A stretch of DNA of 28,277 bases from a virus. The notes under the pieces were generated by a model that was not told where the DNA came from, searched no databases, and saw nothing but the letters and a program-made list of their open reading frames with translations. Every line of letters starts with the position of its first letter. Within the stretch, counting starts at the first letter, position 1. Positions 2,038-21,854 of the stretch are shown here, piece after piece. The stretch is from IMG/VR virus record IMGVR_UViG_3300033273_000709, positions 1-28,277 of that record. One strand, 5' to 3'. The position numbers and the translations under genes are program-made.

Positions 2038-4500
2038 TTAGATCTCCTGACCCCGGCGCCGCCCATCGGCTACGCTCTCCTTGGCGATGCGCGCAATCTC
2101 AGGAATGGCCGCCCGAAGGCGCGCGTCGATCTGCTCGGCAACACCCATCTGCGCCCCGCGCGCGTCGATGTTCACGGTGACGCCCGCGCCAATACTGCCG
2201 CCCCGACCATAGTCGGCCGCCTCGCGTCGGTTCAGCACCCGTTCCCCGCGCTGCAGGATCGTCGGGACCTCGTCGGGGCGGAGCCCAGCCCAGGAGTCAA
2301 CCGGCCCCACGGTCCCTCCTGAATGCATCCGGGAAGCACCAGCGAAAGCCACCGCGGGTACCTGCCGTGTATGGCCCGACAGTCCGACAATACCGCCCGC
2401 ATGCGAGACAGCCGCCGCAACGGACCCGCCGCCAAAGATGCCAGAGAGCGCCGAGGCGATGGGCCCCAGAACCGTCCGCTTGAAGGACAGAACTGCAAGG
2501 TCCGCCAGGATCGAGCGCACGAGGCCCTTGAAGTCGAACCTGCCGGTCTCGACGAAGCTTCGGAACGCGCTTTCTGCGCCACTAAACGCGCCGGTCAGGG
2601 TTTCGCCGAGGCCTTTGCCCCAGTTCAGCGCATCCGTGGCATAAGCCTGAAGAGATTCAGAGACTGCGCGCCACCCGGTGGCGATCCGATCTCCGGCACT
2701 TCCTGCCGCGCCACCGGCGCGCCCCATGGCATCCGATAGCCGATCCGCGGAGGCCGTGGCCTCATCCAACGCCGCCGCGCCTTCTTCACCCGTGCCCGCA
2801 ACAGCGTCACGAAGCGCGCTCCAGGAGGTGAGTGGGGCTGTCGCGCCGTTCGCAAGGTCTGTGGCGGCACGCCGGAAAAGATTGGCTGTTTCCAGGGCAT
2901 CGGCCGCTATGCCATCAAGGCCAAGGTCGGGAACAGAGAGTGGGTTATCCTCGAAGGCTCGGCGAAACGCCTCTGCCGCAGCCGTTCCCGCATCTGCGGA
3001 GGCCCCGGCAAAGGGGTTCGGGATGTCGCCAAGGCTGATTGCCCCGATCTGGCCAAAGGTGGTCTCGATACCGACCGCCGCCAGCGCATCCCGAATGCGG
3101 CCTGTGAATGCGTCAATTCGGCGGATCGCACCGTTCAGCATGGCCTCGATCCCATCGAGCATGCGGTTGGCCGCCGAGAAAACCAGATCCCCGATCACAT
3201 CCGGCAAGCGCGACCAGATCTCGCGCACAGCCAAAAGCGCGCCCTCGAAGGTGTTGGCGGTGGTGTTGCCAAAGGCGACCACACTCTCGATGGCTCCAGC
3301 CATGCCAGTCGCGGCATCGGCTTTCAGGTCGTAAAACATGGCTGTGGCACGCGACCCCGCCGCACTGGCCCCCATTTTGATCCGGTCCCAGACCTCGACG
3401 GCGACGTCTTTCAAGAGGCCCATGACTTCGCCGAAGCCGCCTGCGCCGGTGGCCAGCCGCGTAAACCAGTAGACCAGTTCGCCTGCGCCGACGATCAGCG
3501 CACCGATGCCGGTGCGGATCAACGCGCCTTTCAGCACGACGAGCGTCGTGGCCAAACCCCGCACCGAAAGGGCGGCCGCCGCCATCGCCGCGACCCAGCG
3601 GCCCGCCAGGAAGGTGGCAAAGGTGCTCGCATAGATCGCCAGCCGATCAAGGTTGCTCAGCACCGCGTCAAAAGCCCGGCTGATCGGGCTGGTACTGGAC
3701 GCAAGGGCGACAAACGCATTGGCCGCAGCCTCAAGCGTAGGCGCGAGTGCGACAGCGATCCGATTGCGCACTCCAGTAAACACCTGCCCGATGCTGACCA
3801 GTGCCAATTCGGATCGACGCATCGCGGCGATGGCATCAGCATCGAGCACCGCCCCAAGGGCCTGCGCCTGTGCCCCGAGCCGGGTCATCTCCGCCCCGCC
3901 GTTTTGCAGAAGCGGAATGAGCCGCGTGGCATCGGACGCCATGGCCTCGAGATAGAAGGTCATCTCCTGTTGGCTGACGCCCGCGCGCTCGAGGCTGTCG
4001 ACATAGAGTTGCAGGGCTTCCGGCCCTGAGAGCCGGGCGAACTGATCGGCCGTCACGCCAACACGCGGCGCGATATTCTCGAAGAAATCCGCCATCGGGC
4101 CGCCGCCCGTCTGCAGGAAATCCCCCACGCGGTCATTCACGTCCTTCAGAATATCGGCCAGCTTTTCTTGTTCGATGCCGACCGTGGCCGAGGCCGCCGA
4201 CCAGCGCTGGAACAGCTCTGGATTGGCATTGGCCACCTGAGCGAGCTGGCCGATCTCATTAGCCGCTGCCACGGTTGAGCGGGTCATCGCGACAACGGCA
4301 CCGGCCAAGGCAGTGGCGGCAGCGGTCGCCGCGATCCGGGCCCGTCGCGCGAAAGCGGCCATGCGGGTGTTCGCGAGTTCCATTTCACGGCTGAGACGGC
4401 CGAAGCCCCGAGACCCAGCCTCGCCGACACCTTCCAACTCTGCACGCACCTGGCGGCCGCCGGTCGCGGAAAGCCGGACGGAAACGCGCTTTTCTGCCAT
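2038..4500 (-). CDS. Tail length tape measure protein
   Basis: 820 aa, the longest gene of the tail block, directly after the frameshifted chaperones as in lambda-type tails. N-terminal residues 1-50 (SVRLSATGGRQVRAELEGV) are followed by a long Ala-rich helical region with hydrophobic segments (about 55-75 and 300-350) and a C-terminal domain typical of lambda-family tape measures: FKGLVRSILADLAVLSFKR, then a Gly-rich stretch, then GLRPDEVPTILQRGERVLNR. It sets tail length and probably helps DNA cross the inner membrane. GAGGA lies nine bases before ATG at 4500. Its 3' end carries the SD of the next gene. Length is consistent with a tail of lambda size or slightly shorter. Confidence 0.93.
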   Translation of the reverse strand: MAEKRVSVRLSATGGRQVRAELEGVGEAGSRGFGRLSREMELANTRMAAFARRARIAATAAATALAGAVVAMTRSTVAAANEIGQLAQVANANPELFQRWSAASATVGIEQEKLADILKDVNDRVGDFLQTGGGPMADFFENIAPRVGVTADQFARLSGPEALQLYVDSLERAGVSQQEMTFYLEAMASDATRLIPLLQNGGAEMTRLGAQAQALGAVLDADAIAAMRRSELALVSIGQVFTGVRNRIAVALAPTLEAAANAFVALASSTSPISRAFDAVLSNLDRLAIYASTFATFLAGRWVAAMAAAALSVRGLATTLVVLKGALIRTGIGALIVGAGELVYWFTRLATGAGGFGEVMGLLKDVAVEVWDRIKMGASAAGSRATAMFYDLKADAATGMAGAIESVVAFGNTTANTFEGALLAVREIWSRLPDVIGDLVFSAANRMLDGIEAMLNGAIRRIDAFTGRIRDALAAVGIETTFGQIGAISLGDIPNPFAGASADAGTAAAEAFRRAFEDNPLSVPDLGLDGIAADALETANLFRRAATDLANGATAPLTSWSALRDAVAGTGEEGAAALDEATASADRLSDAMGRAGGAAGSAGDRIATGWRAVSESLQAYATDALNWGKGLGETLTGAFSGAESAFRSFVETGRFDFKGLVRSILADLAVLSFKRTVLGPIASALSGIFGGGSVAAAVSHAGGIVGLSGHTRQVPAVAFAGASRMHSGGTVGPVDSWAGLRPDEVPTILQRGERVLNRREAADYGRGGSIGAGVTVNIDARGAQMGVAEQIDARLRAAIPEIARIAKESVADGRRRGQEI

Positions 4501-17270: not shown

Positions 17271-17477
17271 TCATCGCCAGCGCTCGAAAAGCCGGCGCAG
17301 CGCATAGCTGCGTAGAAGCGAGATTATCACGAATATCGCGCCGATCGCGAGGTTGTCGTTCAGGCTTACTTTCAACCCGAACCACGGAAACACCACGATC
17401 TGCGTCAGCACGGCCAGCGCATAGCCCACCGCGACATTGGTGATCGCCTCGATCAGCGATTGGCGTCGCGACTGCAT
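17271..17477 (-). CDS. Small membrane protein (DUF7220-like)
   Basis: 68 aa from ATG 17477 (MQSRRQSLIEAITNVAVGYA). The ATG overlaps the methyltransferase stop as TGATG, which decides the start over the longer open frame to 17615. Two hydrophobic stretches, about residues 12-32 (ITNVAVGYALAVLTQIVVFP) and 43-56 (LAIGAIFVIISLLR), are joined by FGLKVSLNDN, and the end is basic (SYALRRLFERWR). This matches small inner-membrane proteins found in phages and plasmids of Rhodobacterales. Function unknown. Confidence 0.75.
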   Translation of the reverse strand: MQSRRQSLIEAITNVAVGYALAVLTQIVVFPWFGLKVSLNDNLAIGAIFVIISLLRSYALRRLFERWR

Positions 17478-18739
17478 CACGCTGCCAGGCGCTTGGATTT
17501 GAGGTTGGCGAAACTCTCCCCGCTGTCTGCCAGAACTGCTTCCTCGCTGGTGAAGGCTTGCCAGCGCTCGATAGCGACATCGACGTAAACCGGGTTCAGC
17601 TCTACCCCGTAGCAAATGCGCCCGGTGGTCTCAGCCGCGATCAGCGTGGTGCCCGATCCCATGAACGGCTCATAGATTGCTTGGCCGGGGCTTGAGTTGT
17701 TTAAGATCGGGCGGCGCATGCATTCGACCGGTTTTTGCGTGCCGTGTACGGTCTCGGCATCCTGGTCCTTGTTGGCGATCTGCCAGAGCGTGGTTTGTTT
17801 GCGATCGCCGGCCCAGTGGCCCTTTCCTTTGGCGCGCACGGCATACCAGCAGGGCTCGTGCTGCCAGTGGTAATCGCCGCGGCTGAGCACCAGCCTGTCC
17901 TTTGCCCAGATGATCTGAGAGCGGATGGCGAAGCCCGCGGCGCTCAGGCTGTCCGCCACGGTGGCCGCATGCAGGGCGCCATGCCAGATATAGGCGACAT
18001 CGCCGGGAAAGAGGGACCAGGCCTCGCGCCAATCAGCGCGGTCGTCGTTCAGAACCTTGCCTGTGCGTTTGGTCTTGGCCGCGCCCGCTTGGTTGCGCCA
18101 AGACGGGTCGTATTCCACGCCATAGGGTGGATCGGTCACCATCAGTAACGGTTTGACGCTACCCAGGAGGCGCCCAACCACATCGGCGCTGGTGCTGTCA
18201 CCGCAGATCAGCCGATGTGACCCAAGCTGCCAAAGGTCGCCTGCCACCGACACCGGGTTAACCGGCGGATCCGGGACGTCATCCTCGCCCTCGACGGCCC
18301 CCTCGTCGCCCACCGTCTCTGGATCCTGCAGTAGGGCATCCAGATACTCATCCGAGAAGCCCAGCAGATCGAGGTCGAAGTCTTCCGCCAAGAGCCCTGC
18401 GATTTCGTCGCGCAGCATCGCCTCGTCCCATTCGCCAAGCTCGGTCAGCTTGTTATCGGCGATGCGATAGGCGCGCCGTTCCGCTTCACCTAGATGGCCA
18501 AGCCTGATGACAGGTGCCTCGGTCAGGCCCAGCGCGCCGGCTGCCAGCACGCGCCCATGGCCTGCAATCAACTCGCCGTCGTCAGCGACCAAGCATGGTA
18601 CGGTCCATCCGAACTTCGCCATGCTGGCCGCAATCTTCGCAACCTGTGCCTCGCCATGAATCTTCGCGTTCTTGGCATAAGGGCGCAGCTTCTCGATCGG
18701 CCAGAGCTCGATCTGGCGCGGCGCAAAGACAAGGTCCAT
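17477..18739 (-). CDS. ParB-like / DNA adenine or cytosine-N4 methyltransferase fusion
   Basis: 420 aa. Residues 1-100 are a ParB/Srx-like domain (WPIEKLRPYAKNAKIHGEAQ, then GELIAGHGRVLAA at 55-67). After an acidic linker (140-162) comes an N6/N4 methyltransferase: DPPYGVEYD (203-211), SQIIWAKDR, HWQHEPCWYA, and the SAM motif EPFMGSGTTLIAA (357-369). DPPY before FxGxG is the beta-class order. It probably methylates phage DNA to evade host restriction or regulate expression. No restriction enzyme gene is near, so it looks like an orphan methyltransferase. An in-frame stop just upstream makes ATG 18739 the only ATG start; there is no clear SD. Confidence 0.92.
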   Translation of the reverse strand: MDLVFAPRQIELWPIEKLRPYAKNAKIHGEAQVAKIAASMAKFGWTVPCLVADDGELIAGHGRVLAAGALGLTEAPVIRLGHLGEAERRAYRIADNKLTELGEWDEAMLRDEIAGLLAEDFDLDLLGFSDEYLDALLQDPETVGDEGAVEGEDDVPDPPVNPVSVAGDLWQLGSHRLICGDSTSADVVGRLLGSVKPLLMVTDPPYGVEYDPSWRNQAGAAKTKRTGKVLNDDRADWREAWSLFPGDVAYIWHGALHAATVADSLSAAGFAIRSQIIWAKDRLVLSRGDYHWQHEPCWYAVRAKGKGHWAGDRKQTTLWQIANKDQDAETVHGTQKPVECMRRPILNNSSPGQAIYEPFMGSGTTLIAAETTGRICYGVELNPVYVDVAIERWQAFTSEEAVLADSGESFANLKSKRLAA

Positions 18740-19413: not shown

Positions 19414-19821
19414 CTACTCGATATCCGGATAGATATTGGCTTCGAAATAATCGGCCAAGTCGCTGACGCTCAGCTCGCCAGCGACACGCGCTCGCAGCTT
19501 GGTTTCCAGTTCGTTCTCGGAAACATCCAAGAAAGAGCCATTCATTGCAATAAAGGTCAAAGACGCGATCGCACCCGCCCTCTTGTTTCCATCCATCAAA
19601 GCGTGCCGTGTCGCGATGCCATCATACATCAAGGCGGCAAGGTAGGCTAACCTCGCCTCCGGCTCGTATTCAGCGGCTGACCTTGCCCGCTCGAGCCCTG
19701 CTTCAAAGGCATCGCGGTCGTTCAAGACCATTCGATGGTCCATGGTCTCCATAAATGCTGCAGTTTCGTCCAAGATCGCATCGGCATTGGGCCAAGCGTA
19801 GCCATTGTCTTCCGAGGTCAC
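19414..19821 (-). CDS. doc: Doc-family (Fic fold) toxin
   Basis: 135 aa. The motif HALMDGNKRAGA (from His73) matches the Doc signature HxFxDGNKR, with the second position hydrophobic Leu where Phe is usual. N-terminal WPNADAILDETAAF and the middle LAALMYDGIATRH fit death-on-curing proteins, which phosphorylate EF-Tu and stop translation. GTG at 19821 overlaps the antitoxin stop (GTGA), so the pair is coupled. The partner is AbrB-like rather than Phd. The module probably stabilises the prophage or acts in phage exclusion. Confidence 0.9.
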   Translation of the reverse strand: MTSEDNGYAWPNADAILDETAAFMETMDHRMVLNDRDAFEAGLERARSAAEYEPEARLAYLAALMYDGIATRHALMDGNKRAGAIASLTFIAMNGSFLDVSENELETKLRARVAGELSVSDLADYFEANIYPDIE

Positions 19822-20063
19822 GCCACGTCGCCCTCGCGGCCAAGTTTAACGAGGGTCCGCCGATATCTTTGGGTGACCTTGGCAGCTGCCTCACGCGTTT
19901 CGGTGTAATCGTCGTTGACGGTACGCACGATCAGTGTGCCGTCATCCGTTGAAAGCGTAACCTGCTGTCCTGCGCGCAGTTGCAATGCGTCCATCGTGGC
20001 TGCCGACAGCGGCAGGAAATGGCCATTGCCGATCCTCTTAATCTTATTGGTTGTCGTCGCCAT
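19818..20063 (-). CDS. AbrB/MazE-like antitoxin paired with Doc
   Basis: 81 aa from ATG 20063 (MATTTNKIKRIGNGHFLPLS). The swapped-hairpin AbrB DNA-binding domain covers about residues 5-50 (KRIGNGHFLPLSAATMDALQ, RAGQQVTLSTDDGTLIVRT), and the C-terminal tail (ETREAAAKVTQRYRRTLVKL) is the likely toxin-binding part. The frame is open further upstream, but the extra residues look non-native. It should repress its own promoter through repeats at 20098-20120. Overlaps the toxin start. Confidence 0.85.
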   Translation of the reverse strand: MATTTNKIKRIGNGHFLPLSAATMDALQLRAGQQVTLSTDDGTLIVRTVNDDYTETREAAAKVTQRYRRTLVKLGREGDVA

Positions 20064-20097
20064 AGCGCCCGCATGCTCTTTGCTTGATTGGTTGAAT

Positions 20098-20139
20098 TGT
20101 TTATACGTGATGTTTATACGCATCTGTGGCATTTGTCAA
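20098..20139 (-). promoter_or_regulatory. Promoter and tandem operators of the toxin-antitoxin operon
   Basis: Minus strand TTGACA (20139-20134) is followed after 15 bp by TATAAA. The ten bases CGTATAAACA occur twice in tandem, 13 bp apart (plus-strand TGTTTATACG at 20098-20107 and 20111-20120), and each includes the -10-like element. Tandem sites over the -10 fit autorepression by the AbrB-like protein. The 15-bp spacer is short, so the exact -10 is uncertain. Confidence 0.6.
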
Positions 20140-20148
20140 CGTGCTCGA

Positions 20149-20613
20149 TCAGCAGTCCGCTGGCTGTCTTCGCGGGTCTTTTGTCCAGGGTTGATCGGGT
20201 GGCATCCCTTCCACCAGCTCTACGTCTTGCAGCATTCCCCCAACCTGGAGCCCGTCTCGCACCCAACCCAGTGCGAGCCACCACTCGCTATACGCCCGGC
20301 GTGCTGCCTCAATCTGCCGGGAATCTGGCCGAAACATCACCGGACATGCCCGCACCTCCACGGTCCGCCACTTGCCGCGCGACAGCACACGCTCGGTGCC
20401 CACCACCACGGTCGTTGCATGATCCCCATGCCGGTTGCGCTTCATTTCGACCGGCACGCAGCGCGGCACAGCTCCGGGCATCCAGTCCGGTGTGAGGCCC
20501 GCTCGGGCGAGCTCTGCGACCCGAATGGCCATGCGCTTGCCGCCGAGGTTGTCGGGCATCCCAGCCACTGTGGCAGCGATCACTTCGGCGTCCTCGTGGG
20601 TATGGGTGCCCAT
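20149..20613 (-). CDS. Conserved hypothetical, last gene of the early operon
   Basis: 154 aa (MGTHTHEDAEVIAATVAGMP). Not recognised. N-terminal helix, NLGGKRMAIRVAELARAGLT, then a beta region (ATTVVVGTERVLSRGKWRTV), and a C-terminal helix (QIEAARRAYSEWWLALGWVR) with a Pro/Trp end (GMPPDQPWTKD). No HTH, nuclease or membrane feature is clear. It starts four bases after the 76-aa gene ends. Its place at the end of the early operon is where some phages keep a late regulator; that is only a positional hint. Confidence 0.6.
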   Translation of the reverse strand: MGTHTHEDAEVIAATVAGMPDNLGGKRMAIRVAELARAGLTPDWMPGAVPRCVPVEMKRNRHGDHATTVVVGTERVLSRGKWRTVEVRACPVMFRPDSRQIEAARRAYSEWWLALGWVRDGLQVGGMLQDVELVEGMPPDQPWTKDPRRQPADC

Positions 20614-20616
20614 CTT

Positions 20617-20847
20617 TTACTGACCACCATCGATCTTGCAGCCCAGCGCCGCCCGCTGCATGAGGACGTATTCCAGACCGAAGCCAAATCCTTGGCCACG
20701 CTCTGGGTCGGGCGGCCCGGGTAGTTCCAACTGGGCATGCTCAACGCGAAACGCCCATTCCAGCGCCTGTTGCACTGACATGACGCGTTTCGGTCGTCCG
20801 TGACCTGCGCTTGGAGAGCGAGCATGAAGATTGCGATCGTGTTTCAT
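20617..20847 (-). CDS. Small hypothetical protein of the replication operon
   Basis: 76 aa (MKHDRNLHARSPSAGHGRPK). ATG 20847 overlaps the stop of the initiator gene (ATGA), which supports the start. The N-terminus is basic; the remainder, VMSVQQALEWAFRVEHAQLE then QGFGFGLEYVLMQRAALGCK, is helical and looks folded. Perhaps an accessory of replication; no family recognised. Confidence 0.6.
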   Translation of the reverse strand: MKHDRNLHARSPSAGHGRPKRVMSVQQALEWAFRVEHAQLELPGPPDPERGQGFGFGLEYVLMQRAALGCKIDGGQ

Positions 20848-21854
20848 CGGATACCTCGTTCAAGCAGCCGCTCAACCGTCACAAGGCCTCGGGCCAGCAT
20901 GGCATCGCGCATGGAGTTGGAAATCGCGCTGACGGGCAGGTAGCGATCGGAGTTGACCATCTCGGCGTAGAAGACAGGCAGGTCGGTGACTGGCCTGTTC
21001 TCGGACTTCGACGACTTTCGTGCCTTGCGCCGACCACGGAATTTTTCGTCCGCCTTGCGTTGGGCCGCGCGCTGCATGATGCGATCCAGGCCCTTGGGCC
21101 CATCTGGCGGCTCGGGGTGGTCTTGGCGAGAAGCTTCCGCAGCCTCGAGGATTTCCGCCTCGGTCAGCCCGAGGTCCGTTTGCCAGCGCCGAACATGCTC
21201 TCGGGGCGGCCAACCCTGCCACCAGCCAGGTAGAGGCCCGTCAGGGGCAAAGCCTAGAGCTGCCAACAGCGATCCGAAAAACTCTTCATCGACGATTTCG
21301 CGCGCTCGCGCGTCCTCCTCCTCCTTTACTGGTTTACTTACTGGTTCTCTTACAAGGTTACTGTCCGGATTTCGGACACGGGAATCGGCATTTTCCGGAC
21401 ACGGGTCGGGGGCAAAATCGGACACGGCTCCGTGTATGGATTTCGGACACAGGTGCGGGTTATCCACAGGTTTATCCTCAGAAATGGCCGTGATTTCCGA
21501 ACCCTTGGCTTCGCCTGCGTAGGTCGCTTCGACGCCGTGTGCGGTTTCCGAACACGGCATTGCACAATCTTGGGTAAAGCCCGGCTCGAAGGCCAAGATG
21601 TAGCGGGTTGGCATCTGTCGCTTGGTGCCTGGGTTCAGCCGCTGTATGCGGCGGATCAATCCGGCGCTCTCGAGGAGCGTGAGGTGGTCATTCAGCGTTG
21701 AACGGCTGATTTCGCAGTCATGGGCGAGCTGTTCCTGGGATGGAAAACAGCCGAAGTCCGGGTTGAACCGATCACAGAGATGCCAAAGCACGATTTTGGT
21801 GGTGGGCTTCAGTCCGCGCTGCTGTATCGCCCAATTGGTGGCAGCATGGCTCAT
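20844..21854 (-). CDS. Replication initiator-like protein with N-terminal winged HTH (HTH_36)
   Basis: 336 aa. Residues 1-95 form the HTH_36 pattern (NWAIQQRGLKPTTKIVLWHL, then CFPSQEQLAHDCEISRSTLN and LLESAGLIRRI). A long low-complexity middle (about 105-180) is encoded by the iteron array. The C-terminal part, GWPPREHVRRWQTDLGLTEA with EILEAAEASRQDHPEPPDGP, resembles DnaD/O-type loader domains and ends in a basic region (KFRGRRKARKSSKSENRPVT). It probably initiates phage replication and brings in host helicase. Coupled by ATGA overlaps to the VRR-NUC gene upstream and the 76-aa gene downstream. Confidence 0.8.
   Translation of the reverse strand: MSHAATNWAIQQRGLKPTTKIVLWHLCDRFNPDFGCFPSQEQLAHDCEISRSTLNDHLTLLESAGLIRRIQRLNPGTKRQMPTRYILAFEPGFTQDCAMPCSETAHGVEATYAGEAKGSEITAISEDKPVDNPHLCPKSIHGAVSDFAPDPCPENADSRVRNPDSNLVREPVSKPVKEEEDARAREIVDEEFFGSLLAALGFAPDGPLPGWWQGWPPREHVRRWQTDLGLTEAEILEAAEASRQDHPEPPDGPKGLDRIMQRAAQRKADEKFRGRRKARKSSKSENRPVTDLPVFYAEMVNSDRYLPVSAISNSMRDAMLARGLVTVERLLERGIR
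21373..21468. other. Candidate replication origin: iterons and DnaA box inside the initiator gene
   Basis: The seven bases CGGACAC occur at 21373, 21396, 21419 and 21444 (spacing 23, 23 and 25 bp), each with flanking matches (usually TTCGGACACGGG or TCCGGACACGGG). A perfect DnaA-box consensus TTATCCACA follows at 21460-21468, ten bases after the last copy. A weaker copy CCGAACAC is at 21549. The nearby 21321-21360 region holds TTACTGGTT twice and is relatively AT-rich, a possible unwinding element. Lambda places its origin iterons inside gene O in the same way. Confidence 0.7.

Follow-up and report, generated by a model that had tools for sequence, protein, structure and literature searches.

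The window analyzed here, a stretch of viral DNA of 28,277 nucleotides taken as a whole, carries on its minus strand a gene that we assign as a replication initiator gene on the basis of matches to HTH_36 and phrog_345 and of an AF2 model. The features of this gene are listed below in the order in which they occur along its coding strand.

20844-21854, minus strand: replication initiator gene, 336 amino acids
21666-21704, minus strand: predicted recognition helix, codons 51-63; residues 51, 52, 53 and 56 covary with iteron sequence
21537-21555, no strand assigned: site U, an upstream, degenerate 7-5-7 dyad (12 of 14 arm positions)
21460-21468, plus strand: perfect DnaA box TTATCCACA, found in close relatives only
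21432-21450, no strand assigned: site 1, a 7-5-7 dyad (12 of 14), the left arm of which is the iteron at 21444-21450
21419-21425, minus strand: site 2, a GTGTCCG half-site without a right arm
21396-21402, minus strand: site 3, a GTGTCCG half-site without a right arm
21361-21379, no strand assigned: site 4, a 7-5-7 dyad (13 of 14) that adjoins the AT-rich element
21315-21360, no strand assigned: AT-rich stretch with direct repeats of 12 bp, a putative unwinding element

For comparison, we assembled related loci, comprising the best 80 of 149 confirmed species-genome loci and 69 viral-contig loci. Five of these (L075, L134, L148, L149 and L150) were truncated, divergent or contained N and were dropped from the codon analysis; the resulting 145 genes, including that of the window, were reduced to 117 non-redundant genes by clustering at 95% nucleotide identity. 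The loci L011, L061, L070 and L075 are labelled Gammaproteobacteria, Deltaproteobacteria, Acidovorax and Exiguobacterium, respectively; their genes resemble those of Rhodobacterales phages, and the contigs are perhaps misbinned. Among relatives with enough flanking DNA, the initiator gene belongs to a conserved gene block: it is accompanied by an integrase gene in 105 of 107 and by genes for an excisionase-like helix-turn-helix protein and a VRR-NUC protein in all 107. The presence of integrase and excisionase-like genes near the initiator gene indicates that these are integrating phages.

Directly downstream of the initiator gene, at 20149-20847 on the minus strand, lies a gene of unknown function (phrog_9306) that in the window is interrupted by an in-frame TAA stop and in the close relatives L002 and L004 forms one open frame of 223-224 amino acids. 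An extra gene of 358-416 amino acids lies between the initiator and phrog_9306 genes in L015 (6011-7123), L027, L059, L136 and L145. It is a cytosine-5 DNA methyltransferase gene in L015 by Pfam match, the others look alike by eye, and the window has none at this position. A Fic/Doc-like gene and an AbrB/MazE-like partner at 19414-20132 (minus strand) are a possible toxin-antitoxin pair, as judged from weak matches, and each gene recurs in only 2 of the 104 relatives whose flanks are long enough. At 17477-18739 (minus strand), a ParB-like N-terminal part is fused to an N4/N6 DNA methyltransferase; a match is found near the initiator gene in 18 of 104 relatives.

The AF2 model, for which the alignment took 51 of the 117 non-redundant genes, predicts an N-terminal winged helix, a linker spanning residues 97-172 and a helical C-terminal part. 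Within the winged helix, the recognition helix is predicted at residues 51-63 and the wing at residues 67-87. The linker is modelled with low confidence, mostly at pLDDT below 50, and is predicted to be disordered. The N-terminus matches the Pfam family HTH_36 (E = 6.9e-15), and the best PHROG match is phrog_345, annotated as 'replication initiation O-like' (E = 5.1e-23, residues 1-188), with further matches to PHROG replication-initiator families that include phrog_270 and phrog_391. The Pfam lambda O model does not match the initiator at E values up to 0.01; the Pfam matches are to helix-turn-helix and regulator families only. Fold matches of the full model all concern the winged helix and include, among many winged helices, MarR/SlyA-type proteins, the N-terminal domain of DnaD and a solved initiator (4pt7). 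A comparison of the initiator's sequence profile to solved structures yielded a best match of only E = 0.14. For the C-terminal part there is no Pfam match and a weak PHROG match of unknown function, and fold searches with the low-confidence model of this part yielded nothing convincing and recognised no helicase-loader fold; that such matches are lacking says little.

The first-pass annotation of this DNA had described four copies of CGGACAC, at 21373, 21396, 21419 and 21444 with spacings of 23, 23 and 25 bp, followed by a perfect DnaA box, and all of these are present exactly as described. On the coding strand the iterons read GTGTCCG; their offsets within the gene are 404, 429, 452 and 475, which correspond to frames 2, 0, 2 and 1. 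The total number of CGGACAC copies in the window is unremarkable (7, compared with a shuffle mean of 3.9; 12 of 100 shuffles reach 7). Their clustering is unusual: when the gene was shuffled 5000 times among synonymous codons, a single shuffle had any 7-mer four times within 100 bp. Three elements had been overlooked: a fifth site (the degenerate dyad U), the 7-5-7 structure of three of the sites, and the AT-rich element. The inverted repeat that marks a lambda-type origin is not present at every iteron: it occurs at sites U, 1 and 4, where it forms dyads of 19 bp, while sites 2 and 3 are half-sites.

The earlier note had proposed iteron conservation alongside a drifting protein sequence as a check. 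Among the relatives, at least three exact copies of GTGTCCG are found inside the initiator gene in 122 of 149 loci. Three arms of the same class in a 23-23 bp register are present in 115 of the 117 non-redundant genes (the misses are L118 and L140), compared with 12 of 351 synonymously shuffled genes, and the arms occupy frames 0, 2 and 1 in all 115, an agreement that partly reflects common descent. The iterons are thus conserved, and residues 111-130 vary most in the protein. Site anatomy was counted in 98 class A genes, as defined by first class labels that were assigned by counting arms and that also underlie the dyad counts given below; these labels placed L066, L067 and L120 in class A even though their site 4 arm is of class C. 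Site 4 has both arms, each matching at 6.9 of 7 positions on average, and at sites 2 and 3 only the left arm is present, the right arm matching at 2.3 and 2.1 of 7 positions. Site 1 is a dyad in 97 of these 98 genes and site U is a dyad (at least 11 of 14 positions) in 96. In most relatives, the spacing from site 1 to site 2 is 25 or 37 bp. Class A loci contain 288 dyads with no more than two mismatches within initiator genes (98,577 bp) and 1 outside of them (846,550 bp). The later iteron tables, for covariation and for the tree, assigned arms by position rather than by arm counting.

The DNA adjoining site 4 is likewise distinctive. In 111 of 115 genes, the 36-mer of lowest stability is found immediately past site 4, with an AT content of 63% compared with 35% gene-wide. 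Cumulative GC skew was also considered as evidence for an origin and was rejected: its minimum at 20-22 kb fits, but it is confounded by a nearby switch in gene direction.

Selection at the DNA level shows at synonymous sites: the excess of synonymous-codon identity over expectation is 0.47 for codons 134-180, compared with 0.20 in the rest of the gene (Mann-Whitney p = 4e-16). Of all 47-codon windows, the one beginning at codon 135, the first iteron codon, is the most constrained; the best of the windows separate from it reaches 0.25. The constraint covers the AT-rich element as well. In the protein, variability is highest in residues 111-130, just before the array, is still raised in residues 131-150 and is low in residues 161-180, so that some protein constraint is possible at the AT-rich end. 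The repeats do encode, in part, recurring Cys-Pro pairs, which could be taken to mean that selection acts on the protein linker and not on DNA. Against this, the copies lie in three reading frames and are thus not a protein repeat, synonymous sites are frozen at the repeats, and the encoded linker is predicted to be disordered. We therefore reject the protein-repeat explanation, to which we attach next to no probability, and concur with the earlier proposal that the DNA, rather than the protein segment that it encodes, is under selection.

The DnaA box fared differently. A perfect box has a probability of 0.027 in synonymous shuffles of the window's gene, and it lies 9 bp from site 1. It is found in 6 of the 117 genes, namely that of the window and close relatives that share ancestry, compared with 0.19 expected from shuffles, and in none of the 107 pairs of 1-kb flanks of relatives. 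Thus, the box does not hold up as a conserved part of the origin and may matter in the window and its close relatives only. The earlier remark that lambda does not use a DnaA box in this way was overstated, since DnaA-box-like sites lie near the lambda origin: the available part of one report describes two such sequences that were footprinted in its vicinity (PMC3985674). No box turned up when the lambda stretch was scanned with one strict DnaA consensus. A DnaA-dependent iteron origin with a functional box, as in many plasmids, would be a special case of an origin at this locus rather than an exclusive alternative. Its appeal lies in the position of the box beside site 1, in the excess of boxes over the shuffle expectation and in the presence of TGTGGATAA upstream of the iteron array of phage RcKemmy, but the remaining 111 genes lack the box, as do all 107 flanks, and we consider such dependence improbable. 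The RcKemmy copy (L151, within 3001-3930) encodes Val-Asp-Asn, as in the window, and is maybe a coincidence of codon use.

Two further explanations assign the sites another role. The sites could be operators, with the winged-helix protein acting as a transcription regulator that, by binding inside its own gene, controls either itself or downstream genes. The resemblance of its fold to MarR/SlyA repressors is in keeping with this, as are the records of related phages, whose annotation of the protein goes no further than helix-turn-helix protein or transcriptional regulator. However, the sites lie in the middle of the gene beside an AT-rich element, the flanking DNA is nearly free of dyads (1 in 846,550 bp), and phrog_345, phrog_270, phrog_391 and others are families of replication initiators. 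We regard it as quite unlikely that the sites are operators instead of an origin; the two roles do not exclude one another. Partition systems also have arrays of dyads bound by helix-turn-helix proteins, and the array could in principle be a centromere-like site for partition or maintenance that is bound by the initiator protein. That possibility appears fainter still, given that the nearby integrase (105 of 107) and excisionase-like (107 of 107) genes point to integrating phages and that an origin better accounts for the AT-rich neighbour and for the matches to initiator profiles.

We therefore favour the reading that 21315-21555 is a phage replication origin inside the coding sequence of its initiator, in the style of lambda, a reading drawn from sequence comparison to which we assign a probability of about 0.88. 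The first-pass annotation had proposed an origin within the initiator gene, and the comparisons of iterons, DNA constraint, AT-rich element and winged helix support that proposal well, though not the DnaA box as a conserved part of it. At such an origin, the winged helix would read the GTGTCCG arms with its recognition helix, as the covariation described below suggests. An initiator dimer would occupy each 19-bp dyad (U, 1 and 4), with extra protomers filling the two half-sites, and the protomers would together build a nucleoprotein complex in the 23-bp register. Once assembled, this complex would melt the AT-rich element beside it and so provide the place to which the C-terminal part of the initiator, probably together with a partner, would bring the replicative helicase. 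The constraint that the iterons impose on the DNA would be tolerated because the encoded linker is predicted to be disordered.

In relatives that lack GTGTCCG arrays, the arms read GTGTCTC, ATCTCCG or GTGTCCA and keep the same register, and the recognition helices differ accordingly. Most genes with GTGTCCG iterons encode the helix ISRSTLN[DE]HL, while I[SG]RATLNR[HR]L pairs with GTGTCTC, MS[IV]S[SA]LN[DE]HL with ATCTCCG and VSRSGLNNHL with GTGTCCA. Among the relatives, iteron sequence and the matching recognition-helix residues thus appear to have switched together. The code that we propose from these pairings would relate R or I/V at residue 51 to GTG or ATC, residue 52 to arm base 6, and residues 53 and 56 to base 7.

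The rule on residues 51, 52, 53 and 56 was fixed in writing before it was tested on new genes. The 243 new loci included 240 with a helix, and these gave 58 new, non-redundant genes, 30 with helix types outside the rule and 28 covered by it. Since L230 is cut before the iterons, 27 were evaluable, and the rule fitted all 27, L255 being scored as a fit by the majority of its arms; these new genes share ancestry with the old ones. L227 is the same contig as L349, a 99% match to phage LagS-V1 that was known before the rule was fixed; this leaves 26 of 26 that were truly unseen. The strict register test was failed by 23 of the 58 new genes, some of which have other arm types and some of which have no array that we could find. 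Helices beyond the rule, such as that of L237, in which the helix residues RSTR accompany GTGTCCC iterons, suggest that the rule can be split by position. Exceptions occur as well: arm base 6 is still C in L267 (R-A-S-V), and genes with V or T at residue 56 have G or A at arm base 7. On a tree of the winged helix built without the helix columns, arm base 3 switched once, base 6 three times and base 7 ten times, and residues 51 and 52 switched once and three times, respectively. An independent-pairs test of the covariation, with 1 or 2 pairs on supported branches, was not significant, the independent switches being too few.

The DNA-binding domain and its iterons also behave as a swappable module, as judged from few independent events. 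Residues 1-90 of the mosaic gene L013 are 98% identical to those of the class C gene L122, and its iterons are of class C; its residues 261-336 are 91% identical to those of the window and 75% identical to those of L122. L013 thus couples a DNA-binding domain and iterons that have changed together with a C-terminal part close to that of the window. The isolated phage LagS-V1 is the converse: its C-terminus is a different one, while both its helix and its iterons, which occupy three frames at 23-bp spacing, are of class B. Because the array of the window lies inside the coding sequence, one recombination would move domain and origin together. We lean, by a modest margin over even odds, toward the view that the winged helix and the three-frame array form a compact cassette that confers specificity and has at least five natural versions, in which a short helix code sets the origin sequence, and which Rhodobacterales phages swap or retune while the linker stays translatable. 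Three initiator loci of the GTGTCCG class (L015, L025 and L062) occur on contigs of one Gemmobacter strain, so that shared iterons are seemingly no bar to co-resident prophages.

These results assign a probable origin to a large family of temperate Rhodobacterales phages; neither 'origin of replication' nor 'iteron' occurs in the main text of the papers on this phage group that we searched. They also provide a set of naturally occurring variants in which initiator and origin match, together with specific residue-to-base predictions, and this set allows one to ask how the specificity of such pairs can switch while the origin doubles as coding sequence. The family is a possible source of small, mutually distinct replicons for Rhodobacterales.

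Related initiators, whose genes likewise contain arrays (GACTCCG, GTGTCTC and ACCGGAC), occur in isolated phages: the Rhodobacter phages RcKemmy and RcOceanus, Labrenzia phage vB_LagS-V1 and Rhizobium phage PPF1. These initiators are 34-50% identical to that of the window over the matched part, those of LagS-V1 and PPF1 match along the N-terminal half only, and their records call them just helix-turn-helix proteins or a transcriptional regulator. A similar arrangement is described in the accessible portion of a report on the PLE satellites of Vibrio, in which the DNA-binding domain of RepA covaries with the origin, the C-terminal part is conserved and recombined, and the cognate pairing of RepA and origin was demonstrated experimentally (PMC8263062). 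As far as that portion goes, DNA-binding domain and origin vary together and the C-terminal part is kept in PLE as in the family of the window, whereas the PLE origin is intergenic, with iterons of approximately 30 bp, and the candidate origin of the window lies inside coding sequence.

The closest parallel is lambda. According to the accessible portions of two reports, inverted 19-bp repeats in lambda bind O dimers, and the adjoining 40-bp A+T-rich region opens (PMC5043065, PMC7466680). The window differs from lambda in having two half-sites among its five sites as well as a separate upstream dyad, in the left-arm spacing of its family (23, 23, then 25 or 37 bp, compared with 20, 24 and 23 bp in lambda) and in an initiator that lies outside the Pfam lambda-O family. 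As in lambda and also the Stx phages, the iterons lie within the initiator gene after the DNA-binding part, in three frames and 20-24 bp apart; the frames of the lambda iterons are 0, 2, 2 and 1. Conserved, repeated sites that are presumably bound by the initiator are thus found within the initiator coding sequence, and the AT-rich element lies beside the last iteron in the same 111 of 115 genes. The lambda O gene agrees with this when subjected to the same calculation, its least stable 36-mer starting 5 bp past the end of iteron 4.
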